Positions 1 to 7,277 of a DNA stretch of 46,224 nt are shown piece by piece. Under the pieces are notes generated by a model that saw only the letters and a program-made list of their open reading frames with translations, did not search any database and was not told the origin of the DNA. Every line of letters begins with the position of its first letter. Position 1 is the stretch's first letter. Origin of the DNA: Deltaproteobacteria bacterium. GTDB lineage: Bacteria; Desulfobacterota; Desulfobacteria; Desulfobacterales; Desulfatibacillaceae. The position numbers were made by a program, and so were the translations under genes. The stretch lies in NCBI GenBank assembly GCA_016235345.1, contig JACRLG010000034.1, forward strand, positions 1 through 46,224, in the 5' to 3' direction.

Positions 1-362
1 GCCCCGGTTTCCGCTATCACCTTTTTCTTGCCCATCCACCTGGCAAGAAGGGCCTGGCCCAGGGTGTTGTTGATCTTGTGTGCGCCGGTGTGGGCCAAAT
101 CCTCGCGCTTCAAGTAGATTTTGGCCCCGCCCAGTTTTTCCGTGAGCCTTTTGGCCAGAAACAGGGGCGTGGGCCGTCCGGTGTAACGGGTCAGGAGTTC
201 AAGAAGCTCGGCGGTGAAACGGGGATCGTCCTTCACCCCGGCGTAGGCTTTTTGAAGCTCCAGAATGGCGGGTATGAGGGTTTCGGCAACGTACCGGCCC
301 CCGAAGCGCCCGAAATAGCCGCGTTCATCGGGAATAGCGGAATTCTGCATTATTTGGCTCAT
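1..362 (-). CDS. trpB: Tryptophan synthase beta subunit, 5' part only
   Basis: TrpB condenses indole with serine to make tryptophan, using pyridoxal phosphate. About 120 N-terminal residues are visible, and the gene runs off the left edge of the window. The N-terminus carries [17 protein letters not shown], typical of TrpB, and HTGAHKINN contains the lysine that binds PLP. The ATG at 362 overlaps the trpF stop by one base (TGATG), so the two genes are probably translationally coupled. It is the last gene of the trp operon seen here; trpA presumably lies outside. Identification is secure from the motifs and the operon context. Confidence 0.96.
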
Positions 363-1024
363 CAAAAAATCCTCCTGGTATTTCGGGGCGGCAAGGCCCT
401 TATGGCGTCCATGAAGGCCCGCACCCTTTTTTCATCCTTTTTTCCATAGGCGCTTTCAAGGGCCGAGCTTGCGTCAAGCGCGTCGGCCTTGGCGCCGGTT
501 GCGGCAAAGGCCGCGTTTTCGGCGGATAAGCCCCCGGCAAGAATCATGGGGACCTCCCCTGTTACCCCCAAAGCTTCGGTCCAGTCCCATGTTTTTGCGT
601 TTCCGCCCGGAAGCGCGCCCTCCGCACATTCCATCAGAAAGGCGTCGGGCCGGTAGAGGGCAGCGTCGATAAAATTAGGTGCGCGGTTGATAAAAAGCAC
701 CTTTATTACCCTTATTCCGCTTGCCCGAAGTTCATCCACAGTTTCCGGCGGCTCCTGGCCGTGGAGCTGGGCCCATTCTATGCCCGAAGTTCTGGCGTGG
801 GCAAGCACGCTTTGGGCCGTTTCATTGACGAAAACCCCCACAGCCGCCACCGAAGGCGGCAGGGCGTCCGTCACGGCCCGCGCCTGCCCGTCGGTAACGA
901 ATCTTGGACTTTTGGGGTAAAAAACCAGGCCCACTGCGTCGGCCCCGAAACCCGCGCACATCAGGGCATCTTCCGGGGTGGTTATTCCGCAGATTTTGAC
1001 CTGGACCCTTTCGCTTCCCTTCAT
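362..1024 (-). CDS. trpF: Phosphoribosylanthranilate isomerase
   Basis: This 220-residue protein has the usual length of monofunctional TrpF, which converts phosphoribosylanthranilate to CdRP in tryptophan synthesis. The N-terminal [12 protein letters not shown] is the family signature with the catalytic Cys. [14 protein letters not shown] and the C-terminal [10 protein letters not shown] belong to the phosphate-binding TIM-barrel strands. The ATG overlaps the end of trpC by four bases (ATGA), and the stop overlaps the trpB start. It is a stand-alone gene, not fused to trpC as in enteric bacteria. Confidence 0.96.
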
Positions 1025-1821
1025 GATGCCATGCCTTTAAGATTGCGAAGCATGGCTGTGGGGTCGGGTGATTTCACCAGGGTTTCGCCGATCAGAAAAT
1101 TGCACACCCCGGAATCCATAATCCTTAAAATGTCCTCACGGCTTTTTATGCCGCTTTCGCACACGGCCTTTTTGTCCTGTGGGAGGAGCTTGCTTAGCCG
1201 CTCCGTGGTTCCGATGTCGGTAACAAAGGTCTTTAAGTTGCGGTTGTTGATGCCGACAAGTTCCGCCCCGGCTTTGAGCGCCCTTTCAAGCTCGCATTCC
1301 TCGTGCACCTCAACAAGGGCCGTCATCTTAAACTCTTTCGCAAGCTTTATCGCCTCGGCCAGGAAAGCGTCGTCAAGGGCCGCCACGATGAGCAGAATTG
1401 CGTCCGCGCCCATCACCACGGTTTCGAAAACCTGATAAGTGGAAACGATGAAGTCCTTGCGCAGAACCGGCAGGGTGGAGCTTTGCCGTGCGCTTCCAAG
1501 GTCGCCTTCCAGGGCCTTGAAAAAGGGGGCGTCCGTAAGAACCGAGATGCAGGACGCCCCGCCTTTCTCATAGGCCCTGGCCAGGGCCGCCGGGTCGAGG
1601 TCCGGGCAAAGCGGCCCCTTGGAGGGGGAGGCCCGCTTGATCTCGGCAATGATGCAGGCATCCCGCGAGCCGGGCTCGGATAAAGCGCCGAAAAAATCGC
1701 GCTTCCTTCCCACGAGCAGGGCCTTTTCCCAGAGAGCCTCCTCGCAGGTCCTCAGGCGGGACTCCTCAACCTGCCTCATCTTTTCAACCAGGATCGTTTC
1801 CAGAAAATCCGGCTTGTCCAT
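1021..1821 (-). CDS. trpC: Indole-3-glycerol-phosphate synthase
   Basis: TrpC closes the indole ring from CdRP. The 266-residue TIM barrel shows IIAEIKRASPSKG near residue 58 (catalytic Glu and Lys), LRKDFIVSTYQVFE, LVEVHEECELERAL, VGINNRNLKTF and a C-terminal AVCESGIKSREDI followed by FLIGETLVKS. These are the canonical motifs in the right order. The ATG start has an N-terminal helix typical of the family. A 57-base gap separates it from trpD upstream, and it overlaps trpF downstream by four bases. Confidence 0.96.
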   Translation of the reverse strand: MDKPDFLETILVEKMRQVEESRLRTCEEALWEKALLVGRKRDFFGALSEPGSRDACIIAEIKRASPSKGPLCPDLDPAALARAYEKGGASCISVLTDAPFFKALEGDLGSARQSSTLPVLRKDFIVSTYQVFETVVMGADAILLIVAALDDAFLAEAIKLAKEFKMTALVEVHEECELERALKAGAELVGINNRNLKTFVTDIGTTERLSKLLPQDKKAVCESGIKSREDILRIMDSGVCNFLIGETLVKSPDPTAMLRNLKGMAS

Positions 1822-1878: not shown

Positions 1879-2889
1879 TTAAGATTTCATGAAAGCAACA
1901 AGGTCATCCAGCTTTTTTAACGCAGCCCCGGATTCGATGGATTTTCGGGCAAGGGGTACTGCGTCGGAAAAATCCCTGGCAAGGCCCGTGACTATCAGGG
2001 CGGCGGCGGCATTGGCCACCACCACGTCGGCACAGGCTCCGGGCTCGCCCGAAAGGACCATGCGGGTGATTTCGGCATTCCGGGCCGGAGTTCCGCCGCG
2101 AAGGTCCTCTATCAGCCATCGCCTTCCTATTATCTGCTCAGGGCTTATGTCATAGGTGCGGACATGGCCGTCCCTGAGTTCGGAAATCCTGGTCTTTTCG
2201 CACACGGATATTTCATCCAACCCCTCGTGGCCGTGAACCACGAAGGCCCGCTTGGCTTTCAAGAGATTAAGGGCGGACGCGAACATTTCCGTCAGCTTGG
2301 GATCGTATACCCCTAAAACCTGATATCCCGCGCCCGCCGGGTTGGTGAGGGGGCCCAGCATATTGAAAATCGAGCGTATGCCCACCTCTTTTCTGGCCCT
2401 GGCCGCGTGCTTCATGGCCCCGTGATAAAGGGGGGCGAAGAGAAAACCTATGCCCACAGCGGCTATGGCCTCCTCCACCTTTTCTGGCGGAGCCATTACG
2501 TTGACCCCCAGGGCCTCAAGGACGTCGGCTGAACCGCTCTTGCTGGAGGCGGCCCGGTTGCCGTGCTTGGCCACGGTCACCCCCGCGCCCGCCACCACGA
2601 AGGCGGACGTGGTGGAGATGTTGAAGGTGTTCTTGCCGTCGCCGCCCGTGCCGCAGGTGTCCACCACAACTCCTCCGGGGGTCTGGACCCTGACGGCCTT
2701 CCTTCGCATGGCCCTGGCCGCGCCGGCCAATTCCTCGAAGCTCTCCCCCTTGGCTGCAAGGGCGGCCATGAACGCGCCTATCTGGGCGTCGGTCAGATCC
2801 CCGGCCATCAAGAGGTCCATCAGCCGGGTGGCTTCTTCCTCGTAAAGATCGTAACCCGCCACTATTTTCTGCAATGTTTCGGTAAACAT
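1879..2889 (-). CDS. trpD: Anthranilate phosphoribosyltransferase
   Basis: TrpD transfers the phosphoribosyl group of PRPP to anthranilate. The protein has 336 residues, the normal size for a stand-alone enzyme. The PRPP/Mg loop is visible as VDTCGTGGDGKNTFNIST, followed by VAKHGNRAASSKSGSADVLE, both diagnostic. It is not fused to the glutaminase trpG. Gaps of 61 bases to trpG and 57 bases to trpC are the loosest joints of an otherwise tightly packed operon. Confidence 0.96.
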   Translation of the reverse strand: MFTETLQKIVAGYDLYEEEATRLMDLLMAGDLTDAQIGAFMAALAAKGESFEELAGAARAMRRKAVRVQTPGGVVVDTCGTGGDGKNTFNISTTSAFVVAGAGVTVAKHGNRAASSKSGSADVLEALGVNVMAPPEKVEEAIAAVGIGFLFAPLYHGAMKHAARARKEVGIRSIFNMLGPLTNPAGAGYQVLGVYDPKLTEMFASALNLLKAKRAFVVHGHEGLDEISVCEKTRISELRDGHVRTYDISPEQIIGRRWLIEDLRGGTPARNAEITRMVLSGEPGACADVVVANAAAALIVTGLARDFSDAVPLARKSIESGAALKKLDDLVAFMKS

Positions 2890-2950: not shown

Positions 2951-3526
2951 CTAAAGCTCTCCGGCGAGAGTCAGGAAATTCCGCAACAGCCTCTTTCCCA
3001 CAGGGGTCATTATGGATTCGGGATGAAACTGGATTCCCTCCACGGGAAATTCCCTGTGGCGGATCCCCATGATTTCGCCGTCTTCAGACCTGGCCGTGAT
3101 TTGAAGGCAATCGGGGACGTGCTCCTCAAGAGCCGCAAGGCTGTGGTAGCGCATGGCGGTAAAGGGGTTCGGAAGGCCCGCGTAAACTCCAAGGCCGTCT
3201 GCGGTGACCTCGCTGGTCTTGCCGTGCATGAGGCTTTTCGCCTGCCCCACCCTGCCGCCGAAGGCCACGCAGATGGACTGGTGGCCCAGGCACACTCCGA
3301 GGATTGGCACGGTGGGCGACAGCGCACGGATAAGGGATACCGAAACCCCGGCGTCTTCCGGTGCCTTGGGTCCGGGGGAGATCACGATGCCCCTTGGGCG
3401 GGCTGCGGCGACTTCCTCCACCGTGACCGCGTCGTTGCGGGCCACCTCGACTTCCGCGCCCAGAATTTTGAGGTATTGTACTAAATTGTATGTGAAAGAG
3501 TCGTAATTGTCTATCATGAAAATCAT
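2951..3526 (-). CDS. trpG: Anthranilate synthase component II (glutamine amidotransferase)
   Basis: TrpG hydrolyses glutamine and passes ammonia to TrpE. The 191-residue class I amidotransferase has the N-terminal IDNYDSFTYNLVQYL, the nucleophile motif GVCLGHQSI, and the His-Glu pair in IQFHPESIMTP, so the full triad is present. The start at 3526 is preceded by GGAAGGAG, which lies inside the last codons of trpE, so ribosomes probably reinitiate here. The same protein could also serve as PabA for folate, as in many bacteria with a single copy; that is inference. Confidence 0.95.
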   Translation of the reverse strand: MIFMIDNYDSFTYNLVQYLKILGAEVEVARNDAVTVEEVAAARPRGIVISPGPKAPEDAGVSVSLIRALSPTVPILGVCLGHQSICVAFGGRVGQAKSLMHGKTSEVTADGLGVYAGLPNPFTAMRYHSLAALEEHVPDCLQITARSEDGEIMGIRHREFPVEGIQFHPESIMTPVGKRLLRNFLTLAGEL

Positions 3527-3530
3527 TGTG

Positions 3531-5020
<1,490 letters not shown>

Positions 5021-5024
<4 letters not shown>

Positions 5025-6052
5025 GCTGCCCCCTTGTCGGCCAAATCATCGCGGAAAAGAGCGTTGATTTTTTCGATGTCCCGGCAAAGGTCCGCGAACT
5101 GGGCCGGATAAAGGCTCTGGCCGCCGTCCGAAAGGGCCTTTTCCGGCTGGTTGTGAACCTCGATCATGAGCCCGTGCACGCCCACCGCCGCCGCCGCCCT
5201 GGCAAGGGGCGTCACCTGGCTTCGGACCCCTGCGGCGTGGCTTGGATCGACGATTATGGGCAGGTGGCTTTCATGCTTCACCACTGGGACGGCGGAGAGA
5301 TCCAGGGTATTTCTGCTGTGCATGGCGAAGGTTCTGAGGCCGCGCTCGCACAGGATCACGTCCATGTTGCCGCCTTCAAGTATGTATTCGGCGGCCATGA
5401 GCCATTCCTCGATGGTGGCCGACATGCCGCGCTTTAACATCACAGGCTTTCTGCTCTTTCCGGCGCGCTTCAGAAGCGTGAAGTTCTGCATGTTGCGGGC
5501 TCCTATCTGGACCACGTCGGCGTATTCCTCCACCATGTCGAAGACCTCGTGGTCCATGGCCTCGGTGATTACGGGAAGACCGGTCTCCTCGCGGACCTTC
5601 GCAAGAATCTTCAAGCCCTCCAGGCCCAGGCCCTGGAAGGAATATGGCGAGGTTCTGGGCTTGAAGGCCCCTCCCCGGAACATGGTGGCCCCGGCCTGTT
5701 TCACGTCGCGGGCTATGGAAAGGCACTGTTCCAGGCTCTCCACCGCGCATGGCCCGGCCATTATGGTGAAGCCGCCGTTTCCGACCTGTGTATTGCCCAC
5801 CTTGATCACCGTGTCCTCATGCTTGAACTCGCGGCCCACCAGTTTATAAGGTTTGGTGACGGGAATGGCCTCCCTCACCCCCGGCATGGCCAGAAAGAGC
5901 GAGGCGTCCACCGGCCTGTCGTTGTGAAGGATTCCTATGGCGGTGCGTTCCCCGCCGGGAATGGGGCGGGCGATGAATCCGCTTGCTTCGACTGCCTCGA
6001 TTACGGCTTTTATGTCCTCTTCGGTGGCGCTTTTTCTCATTACCAGCAGCAT
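5021..6052 (-). CDS. aroF: 3-deoxy-7-phosphoheptulonate (DAHP) synthase, type I-beta
   Basis: This enzyme condenses PEP with erythrose 4-phosphate, the first step of the shikimate pathway. The 343-residue protein has an N-terminal ferredoxin-like domain (about residues 1-65, starting MLLVMRKSATEEDI) followed by the KDSA/DAHPS barrel. The barrel shows IMAGPCAVES, MFRGGAFKPRTSPYSFQG, VLCERGLRTF, IVDPSHAAG and a C-terminal MIEVHNQPEKALSDG. This is the two-domain arrangement known from Thermotoga-type enzymes, in which the N-domain mediates Tyr/Phe feedback. GGAGG sits eight bases before the ATG. As the first structural gene of the trp operon it falls under the Trp attenuator. Confidence 0.94.
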
Positions 6053-6096: not shown

Positions 6097-6131
6097 AAAA
6101 GGGGCCTTGGGTTGTATCAACCCGCAGCCCC
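6097..6131 (-). terminator. Second terminator-like hairpin between attenuator and aroF
   Basis: On the minus strand GGGGC pairs with GCCCC, then after a 3/3 internal loop GGGTTG pairs perfectly with CAACCC around a three-base loop. TTTTGATTTT follows. It lies just past the trp attenuator terminator and 45 bases before the aroF start codon. It may be a back-up terminator or a structure that affects aroF translation; the sequence alone does not decide. Confidence 0.6.
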
Positions 6132-6139
6132 GAAAACTG

Positions 6140-6174
6140 AAAAAGGACCGCAGGCCTTTGCGCCCGTGGTCCTT
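6140..6174 (-). terminator. trp attenuator terminator (3:4 hairpin)
   Basis: Minus-strand AAGGACC pairs with GGTCCTT, and after one A/C mismatch CGGGC pairs with GCCTG (one G-U) around the loop GCAAAG, followed by TTTTTC. This is a standard intrinsic terminator. It lies 31 bases past the stop of the Trp-rich leader peptide, and its 5' arm contains the sequence that can pair instead with the leader. Confidence 0.88.
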
Positions 6175-6260
6175 CCGGAAATTTTGCCTTATGAAACTAA
6201 CGTGTTACGCGGCGTTTTCTCCGAAGGGGTTTGATTGGGCGCACGAGTACGAAGTGCGCC
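6159..6260 (-). promoter_or_regulatory. trp attenuator: mutually exclusive pairings 1:2 and 2:3
   Basis: Segment 1 (6254-6260, GGCGCAC on the minus strand) pairs perfectly with segment 2 (6238-6244, GTGCGCC) around a nine-base loop. Segment 2 read as TGCGCCC (6237-6243) also pairs perfectly with GGGCGCA (6159-6165), which lies in the 5' arm and loop of the terminator. A nested CCTTC (6223-6227) to GAAGG (6171-6175) pairing would extend that antiterminator. Segment 1 overlaps the third Trp codon of the leader, so a ribosome stalled there frees segment 2 and blocks the terminator. The logic is as in the enteric trp attenuators. Confidence 0.85.
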
Positions 6261-6306
6261 AGCACCAGACCCAACCGGAAAAACCTTTTGCGAAAACACG
6301 ATTCAT
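6205..6306 (-). CDS. trpL: trp operon leader peptide
   Basis: A 33-residue reading frame starts with ATG at 6306 behind GGAG spaced seven bases. Residues 10-17 read SGWVWCWR, with Trp at positions 12, 14 and 16. The frame ends in NPFGENAA and TAA. It encodes no structural protein; its role is to sense charged tRNA-Trp. The third Trp codon (6259-6261) overlaps attenuator segment 1. The spacing between the Trp codons, the hairpins and the terminator matches ribosome-stalling attenuation. It is longer than the 14-residue E. coli leader. Confidence 0.88.
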   Translation of the reverse strand: MNRVFAKGFSGWVWCWRTSYSCAQSNPFGENAA

Positions 6307-6335
6307 GAAAAAACTCCATTTGGCATCTTATGAAC

Positions 6336-6364
6336 CTCTAATCCAAGGCCAAGCTGCCTGTCAA
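6336..6364 (-). promoter_or_regulatory. Probable sigma-70-type promoter of the trp operon
   Basis: On the minus strand TTGACA (6359-6364) is a perfect -35 box. After 17 bases TTAGAG (6336-6341) is a weak -10 box. The start point would be near 6329, about 12 bases before the leader ribosome site. The -35 is convincing, the -10 is poor. No Trp-repressor operator was recognised. Confidence 0.6.
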
Positions 6365-6409: not shown

Positions 6410-6763
6410 TTACAGAAACACCTTGTAACTTATTTTCAAAACCTTTCCGAGACGTTTTGCCATGTTGACGCCTATGGGCCTCTTACCGTTTTCCATTTCC
6501 GAAATATGGCGCTGGGGGATACCGGTGATTTCGGAAAGGCGCGCCTGGGTTACTCCTTCCTTGCCGCGAGCGCCGCGCAGGGCGATTCCGGCAAGCTTTT
6601 TGGCGCCATATTCAGGGAAAGCCTCGCGCCACGGGATGACCTCGGAAGCCTCGGAAAAACCCAGGCCCACCAGAATCCTTACAGCCTCTTCCCTGCAGGA
6701 CGACGGCCCGACGAACCGGAGGACGACGTTTTCAATAGGGGGCTTTTTCGTGGTTTCCAACAT
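6410..6763 (-). CDS. XRE-family antitoxin of a HigBA/RelE-type module
   Basis: The 117-residue protein has a helix-turn-helix in its C-terminal half: EGVTQARLSEITGIPQRHIS followed by EMENGKRPIGVNMAKRLGKV, a typical XRE/Cro DNA-binding fold. The ATG at 6763 has a strong GGAGGTGA four bases upstream, located inside the toxin gene, and the two frames overlap by 32 bases. It should neutralise the toxin and repress the operon, as is usual for this family. The toxin-first order matches HigBA systems. The gene ends only 46 bases before the trp -35 box, with no terminator seen between them. Confidence 0.85.
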   Translation of the reverse strand: MLETTKKPPIENVVLRFVGPSSCREEAVRILVGLGFSEASEVIPWREAFPEYGAKKLAGIALRGARGKEGVTQARLSEITGIPQRHISEMENGKRPIGVNMAKRLGKVLKISYKVFL

Positions 6764-7010
6764 ATTTCACCTCCACAAGCCGAGCGGCGTTGTCCACTGA
6801 TTCCCATATCGCAACGTAGGTGGGACGGCCAATTTTAATGTGGCAATGATGCAGGTTGACGCCAAGCCTTCCATAATTTGGCCAGTTGCCTCGAACAGGT
6901 CCTCTCGCCTCAATGTCGAGCATAAGGGCCACCAGACGGGAGCGCACCGATTCCGGCAGCCTGGAAATGGTCTTTGCAGCCTTGTCAGTGATACCGACTG
7001 TCCATTTCAT
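6732..7010 (-). CDS. RelE/HigB-like toxin
   Basis: This 92-residue protein resembles the RelE/ParE-fold mRNA interferases. LPESVRSRLVALMLDIEARG matches the helical N-terminal part, and HHCHIKIGRPTYVAIWE with the terminal EVKYVGNHEKAPY matches the strand core and C-terminus of this family. I chose the ATG at 7010 (MKWTVGITDK). A TTG two codons earlier is possible, and neither has a clear ribosome site. It is the first gene of the pair and overlaps its antitoxin gene. Target and activity are inferred from family only. Confidence 0.82.
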   Translation of the reverse strand: MKWTVGITDKAAKTISRLPESVRSRLVALMLDIEARGPVRGNWPNYGRLGVNLHHCHIKIGRPTYVAIWESVDNAARLVEVKYVGNHEKAPY

Positions 7011-7277
7011 TTGCAATATACCAAAAATTAGTATTAAGTTAAAGAGAAAAACACTCTCATCAAACCGTAATGCGTTTACTAATCTTGCCTCAATTTCTTT
7101 ATCGTGTCAACCGCCGTCTTAAGGAAACCCATGTTTCACTGAAAATGATCCGCAAGCTGAAAACCTCCTTTTAAACCGCCGACAGGTGACCGCTTTCTCT
7201 TTGAACTTGACCGGGCCGCCGGTTTTTCGTATTCTGCCTGAACTCCCATCCGTAAAACCCCATAAGGAGTCCCCCCC

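Follow-up and report, generated by a model that had tools for sequence, protein, structure and literature searches.

A probable tryptophan attenuator with six pairing segments and two serial terminators upstream of the trp operon in Desulfobacterales

Upstream of the aroF-trp operon of a Deltaproteobacteria bacterium of the order Desulfobacterales we find what is probably a ribosome-mediated tryptophan transcription attenuator, with two intrinsic terminators one behind the other and a total of six segments that can pair. Two of its alternative pairings, 2:3 and 4:5, could together disable both terminators. The window, that is, the whole stretch of DNA that was analyzed, comprises positions 1 to 46,224 of contig JACRLG010000034.1, and all the window features described here lie on its minus strand.

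Leader, operon and pairing segments in the window

The gene order downstream of the attenuator is aroF-trpE-trpG-trpD, followed by putative trpC and trpF, which we take to be these genes from their sequence motifs. The leader and the operon comprise the following features.

6359..6364 (-): candidate -35 element TTGACA, suggested by reading of the sequence
about 6340-6335 (-): possible, weak -10 element TAGAGG, read from the sequence
6314..6317 (-): GGAG, likely the Shine-Dalgarno for the leader ORF, read from the sequence
6205..6306 (-): leader peptide ORF, 33 aa, MNRVFAKGFSGWVWCWRTSYSCAQSNPFGENAA (ORF listing; Trp-cluster leaders also in relatives)
6273-6271, 6267-6265 and 6261-6259 (-): leader Trp codons 12, 14 and 16
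5021..6052 (-): aroF, DAHP synthase of B. subtilis type (PRK08673; protein family search)
3531..5024 (-): trpE, anthranilate synthase component I (best models, scores somewhat under the curated cut-offs)
2951..3526 (-): trpG, anthranilate synthase component II (protein family search)
1879..2889 (-): trpD, anthranilate phosphoribosyltransferase (protein family search)
362..1821 (-): putative trpC (1821-1021) and trpF (1024-362) (ORF listing)

A leader promoter at this place is possible on thin evidence, the candidate TTGACA being absent from the output of the promoter scan, which totalled 2 against 1.2 in shuffles. Directly upstream of the leader are two small genes (6410-7016, minus strand), one coding for an XRE-type helix-turn-helix protein with a weak HipB-family match below cut-off and the other an overlapping 94-aa ORF; they look like a toxin-antitoxin pair.

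The leader overlaps the first of six segments, which are arranged in the order of transcription as follows.

6254..6260 (-): segment 1 (GGCGCAC), overlapping the third Trp codon (fold; kept in sister genome L003)
6237..6244 (-): segment 2 (GTGCGCCC), within the leader ORF, partner of segment 1 or 3 (fold, duplex search)
6223..6227 (-): second block of segment 2, CCTTC, partner of 6175-6171 (sequence, duplex search)
6159..6176 (-): segment 3, 5' arm of terminator 1, with the 2:3 target GGGCGCA at 6165-6159
6141..6176 (-): terminator 1 (T1, pairing 3:4), -23.3 kcal/mol, U-run 6144-6140 (hairpin detector; covariation in 30 families)
6144..6155 (-): segment 4, 3' arm of terminator 1, free once 2:3 forms and complementary to segment 5
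6120..6131 (-): segment 5, 5' arm of terminator 2; 4:5 has 12 consecutive pairs
6101..6131 (-): terminator 2 (T2, pairing 5:6), -22.0 kcal/mol, followed by TTTTGATTTT at 6100-6091 (hairpin detector)

A first-pass annotation had placed a complete, enteric-type attenuator at 6140-6306, with a 33-codon leader that has Trp at codons 12, 14 and 16 and overlaps segment 1; we find the same ORF and the same overlap, which includes the third Trp codon. The 2:3 pairing that it proposed is exact, TGCGCCC (6243-6237) being the complement of GGGCGCA (6165-6159), and the additional pairing of CCTTC (6227-6223) with GAAGG (6175-6171) was recovered with it when an unprompted duplex search returned the same two blocks. 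The predicted fold of 6130-6320 has an energy of -73.3 kcal/mol (z -4.3), a value reached in none of 200 shuffles, and in it 1:2 pairs 6244-6238 with 6260-6254. Pairings 1:2, 2:3 and 3:4 are mutually exclusive. A terminator scan of the 2.5 kb region included 6166-6151; it found 3 terminators against 3.8 in shuffles and, since this total is not above chance, the scan alone is no evidence.

The second hairpin (6131-6101), which has a U-run of its own and ends 35 nt upstream of the aroF Shine-Dalgarno, was overlooked in the first-pass annotation. Its 5' arm is complementary over 12 pairs to segment 4 (6155-6144 with 6131-6120). Because of this terminator-like hairpin we place the end of the attenuator unit, as read from the sequence, at about 6091, beyond the 6140 given previously. 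The words complete and enteric-type thus hold in part: both the leaders of relatives and covariation in 3:4 give good support to a ribosome-stalling Trp attenuator, but the second conserved terminator-like hairpin and 4:5 had been missed, and E. coli trpL has one terminator.

Recurrence in relatives and preferential preservation of 4:5

With TrpE as the anchor, 251 trpE-upstream regions were collected, 181 from or titled as Desulfobacterales, 63 from elsewhere in the phylum and 7 from archaea. The 181 are loci and not genomes, some genomes appearing twice (for example L007/L032, L011/L033, L083/L114), and locus counts disregard relatedness except in the one-per-family sets. A first leader detector called wrong ORFs in L006 and L091, which were then put right, and in L059 and L065, which were removed together with the duplicate L032; a stricter detector took its place. 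Of the 251 regions, 204 (162 of the 181 in the order) have a leader with clustered Trp plus a T-run hairpin, and the remaining 47 yielded no such combination. Reverse complements score 51 of 251, so some of the calls are false. At least three clustered Trp together with two hairpins occurred in 123 regions and in 2 reverse complements (of 251). Trp-cluster leaders, whose conservation the first-pass annotation had made a test of its reading, recur in relatives far above the reverse-complement control, with 2 to 5 Trp and most commonly 3.

A fixed spacing rule identifies tandem terminators at 119 of 181 loci of the order, 21 of 63 elsewhere in the phylum and 0 of 7 archaeal loci (62 and 42 loci of the first two groups were not called), and in 31 of 42 loci when one per family was taken. 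T2 falls within 70 nt after T1 in 119 of 145 order loci, as compared with 191 of 1450 dinucleotide shuffles. Removal of exact duplicates of the T1-T2 stretch left 139 distinct tandem loci. Several loci of Desulfobacter type carry a single terminator. A Trp-containing leader with one detected terminator is present at L048 and L050 (Desulfobacter), L052 (a member of the Desulfobacterales) and L053 (Desulfospira); from these sequences the second terminator looks to have been lost or gained within the order.

The computation establishes, at the level of sequence, the leader, the pairings and their conservation. In an alignment of 30 of 32 family representatives, one sequence per family (L082 and L088 omitted), 3:4, one of the pairings in which the earlier annotation had proposed to look for covariation in related operons, is 96.3% paired with two-sided changes, and 5:6 is 92.3% paired, likewise with two-sided changes. 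Over the 139 tandem loci, 2:3 has a mean z of -2.57 against shuffles (93 loci below -2; window -1.8). The 1:2 pairing, clear in the window fold and in sister genome L003, is on average better than shuffles family-wide but weaker and less uniform: z averages -1.57, with 91 of the 139 loci under -1 and the window at -2.0. The position of segment 2 within the leader frame was correctly noted before and is shared with other genomes. Among the 139 tandem loci, segment 2 finishes within the ORF in 103, spans the stop in 32 and follows it in 4, which makes the inside position the norm of the clade. In the window its distance to the stop is greater than the median of the tandem loci.

The strongest alternative, which we regard as unlikely and yet serious, is a conventional one-terminator Trp attenuator, where the second hairpin is only a back-up terminator or a duplicated relic and 4:5 simply follows from the resemblance of the two hairpins. 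T1 and T2 do have a common CCGTGG/CCACGG core, and leader, 2:3 and 3:4 would be enough to control T1. If resemblance were all, however, 4:5 and its mirror pairing 3:6 would be expected to be equally good, and 3:6 is the poorer. With whole arms, the stronger of the two is 4:5 at 119 of the 139 loci (means -15.4 and -11.4), and with the GC cores only, at 104 (104 to 34); among the 32 family representatives the figures are 27 to 4 and 23 to 9. Pairing within a locus is better than across loci for 4:5 (z -11.8) and also for 3:6 (z -5.2), so plain T1/T2 resemblance does contribute.

In the 30-family alignment, three of five measures set 4:5 above shuffles: pairing (95.1% against 92.3%, 0 of 500 shuffles reaching it), covariation (0.348 against 0.282, 0 of 500) and double-change cells (10 against 2.9, 3 of 500). 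The other two, which relatedness inflates least, are at shuffle level: the number of pairs changed on both sides is 3 against 2.1 (165 of 500) and that of pair types 16 against 15.0 (154 of 500). This speaks for the one-terminator alternative. In these families the mirror pairing 3:6 is 74.8% paired, not above shuffles.

Transitions between T1 and T2 that leave a G-U pair number 43 in 4:5 and 3 in 3:6. Thirty-six of the 43 are at purine-side positions, with T1 the weaker hairpin, as could result from a weak T1 alone; pyrimidine-side transitions likewise favour 4:5, 7 to 1. Column 48/78 contributes 23 of the 43, and with this column excluded 15 families are for 4:5 and 3 for 3:6. A second set, consisting of loci elsewhere in the phylum or before other genes, came from 79 of 312 loci searched, where 98 matches were reduced to 60 by removing opposite-strand and identical rows; here transitions keep 4:5 in 45 cases against 16 (per locus 24 against 6, with 30 ties), in a sample that was chosen by an alignment-derived model and is thus not fully independent. 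Finally, in 67 control tandem terminators located elsewhere 4:5 is weaker (median -10.2 against -15.4), which counts against resemblance as the whole explanation. The controls lean to 4:5 too, 41 to 24 (Wilcoxon p 0.17; sign test p 0.046), and some of them are probably missed attenuators (L013, L016), which tilts the control towards 4:5. Together, these computations show 4:5 to be preferentially preserved relative to 3:6 in the sequences compared.

Proposed switching, folding energies and known systems

We infer ribosome stalling, termination at both sites and a kinetic order of events. When Trp-tRNA is sufficient, the ribosome would pass the Trp codons and 1:2 would form, so that RNA polymerase would encounter terminator 1 and then terminator 2 as a back-up. 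When Trp-tRNA is short, the ribosome would stall on Trp 12-16 and mask segment 1, allowing 2:3 to form; segment 4, thus released, would pair with segment 5 on its emergence, segment 6 would be left partnerless, both terminators would fail and aroF-trpEGDCF would be transcribed.

Evaluated each alone, the energies are -45.9 kcal/mol for 3:4+5:6, -38.0 for 2:3+5:6 and -35.0 for 2:3+4:5. In the window 5:6 is therefore more stable than 4:5 even with 2:3 formed, a further point for the one-terminator alternative. Since both terminators win at equilibrium, releasing them together would have to be a kinetic effect. For RNA free from 6246, the case of a ribosome on Trp 16, the best fold changes as the transcript grows: it is 2:3 with segment 3 out, 3:4 just after segment 4 appears, 2:3+4:5 with segment 5 out (transcript to 6120) and 3:4+5:6 after the emergence of segment 6. 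With RNA free from 6252 or 6258 and segment 5 emerged, the best fold is 3:4 and not 2:3+4:5. In these models 4:5 is consequently favoured only transiently, and in one of three ribosome positions. On the other side, under the one-terminator alternative an intact back-up terminator would stop expression after read-through of T1.

The second hairpin might instead be a separate element outside the ribosome switch, for example a stem that binds a protein or stabilizes the mRNA, or an attenuator in its own right that answers to another signal. This appears improbable. The core sequence of T2 is strongly conserved in the alignment, as such an element would have it, and conserved core motifs are described for tandem terminators of rimP leaders in the accessible part of PMC2965389; however, T2 carries a U-run, stands at a near-constant distance from T1 (median 41 nt between T-runs in the tandem loci) and is complementary to segment 4, and the only nearby ORF of at least 20 aa on the strand (6120-6040, TTG) starts inside T2 and has no Trp cluster. 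That a T-box, TRAP or a riboswitch senses Trp or tRNA-Trp without a ribosome, as happens at other trp operons, is very improbable in view of the recurrent Trp-codon clusters, of Phe/Tyr-rich leaders at sites of the same type elsewhere, and of an Rfam search of the window that gave no family at gathering score, with three weak matches (E 1.4 to 3.7) around the site and none to the T-box model.

Returning to the six-segment attenuator, it resembles the enterobacterial trpL (RF00513, whose Trp_leader model likewise gave no match in the Rfam search of the window) in having a Trp-codon leader, a putative 1:2 protector, a 2:3 antiterminator and a 3:4 terminator before a trp operon. E. coli trpL has WRTS after its Trp codons and TGGCGCACTTC in the DNA, and both recur in the window. 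Unlike E. coli trpL, in which the same hairpin detector finds one terminator, the window has two and a 4:5 pairing, its leader is longer and its segment 2 lies inside the ORF. Judged by its sequence, the element has most of the tested properties of a ribosome-mediated trp attenuator.

The enterobacterial his leader, according to the portion of PMC10989985 that was available, alternates stem-loops AB/CD/EF with BC/DE, with uridines after EF only. The chain of six segments (1:2/3:4/5:6 against 2:3/4:5) is alike in complementarity and conservation, switching in our case being predicted; the middle hairpin of the window has a U-run as well, unlike that of his, and the codons are Trp or aromatic instead of His. 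Two terminators in series, with a potential antiterminator, also occur in the rimP leader of some Gammaproteobacteria, where the accessible text of PMC2965389 describes no amino-acid leader peptide and where genes and lineage differ. In Desulfovibrio, a related delta-proteobacterium, tandem THI riboswitches precede thiSGHFE, each with a terminator (PMC545781, in part); there one metabolite sensor serves each of the serial terminators, in contrast to one leader ORF and two terminators in the window. Salmonella mgtCBR has tandem attenuators with two short ORFs (extract of PMC3641672), and so more than one attenuation step before one operon; in the window one ORF serves both terminators. The ilvBNC attenuator has three hairpins and one terminator (extract of PMC11857589).

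Within the accessible parts of these sources, PMC545781 makes no mention of trp, aromatic or leader peptide in connection with delta-proteobacteria, and PMC2965389 and PMC4833913 make none of delta, Desulfo or Geobacter taxa. A full-text literature search, with most subscription papers outside its scope, returned no description of the two-terminator design. Work by Vitreschak et al. in 2004 and Merino et al. in 2008 is said to treat trp attenuation and could contain related predictions. We judge ribosome-mediated attenuation to be known, and two serial terminators under one predicted cascade to be new.

Related sites before other aromatic genes

A covariance model of the T1-T2 stretch had matches in 147 of 198 phylum genomes at E up to 0.01. 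Such matches are not only trp sites but also other sites, copies on the opposite strand and, in at least one case (L288), a tandem terminator at a gene end. In the window's own genome the trp site has E 1.1e-7 and the next listed hits E 0.037 and weaker; two matches were counted there at E up to 0.01, and this genome may hold a second site. The weaker hits L256 and L257 were considered as further copies and on inspection taken for other hairpins.

We inspected 33 hits from the top of the model list, which are not a random sample and of which at least two precede trpE (L272, L308). At 29 of the 33, a short ORF that includes 4 or more aromatic residues in 8 ends near T1, whereas random positions within these loci give 99 of 1980; no such ORF was found at L278, L288, L295 and L304. 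Two hairpins each with a T-run are present at 28 sites; L294, L295 and L300 have two hairpins, one without a clean T-run by our rule, and L301 and L305 have one terminator only. An NCBIfam search of 25 downstream proteins, trimmed to at most 400 aa, gave the following assignments and no family for those at L296 and L298.

L283, L292, L294, L300: TrpB-like
L290, L295, L311: DAHP synthases
L275, L293, L302: 2-amino-3,7-dideoxy-D-threo-hept-6-ulosonate synthase
L272, L308: TrpE
L312: trpD
L301, L303: PaaK
L305: indolepyruvate oxidoreductase
L285, L286: aminotransferase
L297, L307, L310: ABC substrate-binding proteins (below cut-off)
L278: acetolactate synthase
L304: acyl-CoA dehydrogenase (no aromatic leader)

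The TrpB-like genes stand behind Trp-containing leaders and two hairpins, a hint from sequence context that these enzymes function in tryptophan supply. The hept-6-ulosonate synthase, which in archaea provides another route into aromatic synthesis, is preceded in its three loci by Phe/Tyr-rich leaders and tandem terminators, with look-alikes at L279 and L281. The PaaK leaders read FFFFFYF and FFYFSYF (L301, L303) and that of indolepyruvate oxidoreductase WWRWWW; of these three loci L303 alone has the tandem form. Such leaders suggest that PaaK and indolepyruvate oxidoreductase help to make Phe and Trp from arylacetates, and not to degrade them. Tyr- or Phe-rich leaders are likewise found before the genes of the three ABC substrate-binding proteins, whose weak matches are of branched-chain type and which may bind aromatic amino acids. 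At L278, tandem terminators and a Leu/Val/Ile-rich frame (LVLIVV) before acetolactate synthase represent a possible branched-chain version of the same design. At L288, two near-identical terminators lie between apparently convergent genes; duplication of tandem terminators therefore occurs outside attenuators too, as the one-terminator alternative would have it.

We tentatively extend the proposal to a phylum-wide class of two-terminator, six-segment elements that would govern an aromatic amino-acid regulon in Desulfobacterota. One stalled ribosome would disable both terminators by a pairing cascade, the interlocked pairing would freeze the CCGTGG/CCACGG core, and the leaders would reveal TrpB-like proteins, PaaK, aminotransferase and certain ABC transporters as parts of aromatic amino-acid supply.

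Two serial terminators, if relieved by one ribosome event, would shut the operon off more tightly than the textbook trp attenuator does and still need a single sensor, and they would be a natural experiment on the evolution of RNA folding cascades. The structure can be found phylum-wide by a covariance model, and the leader peptides hint at the amino acid served by each downstream gene, suggesting roles for proteins such as PaaK.
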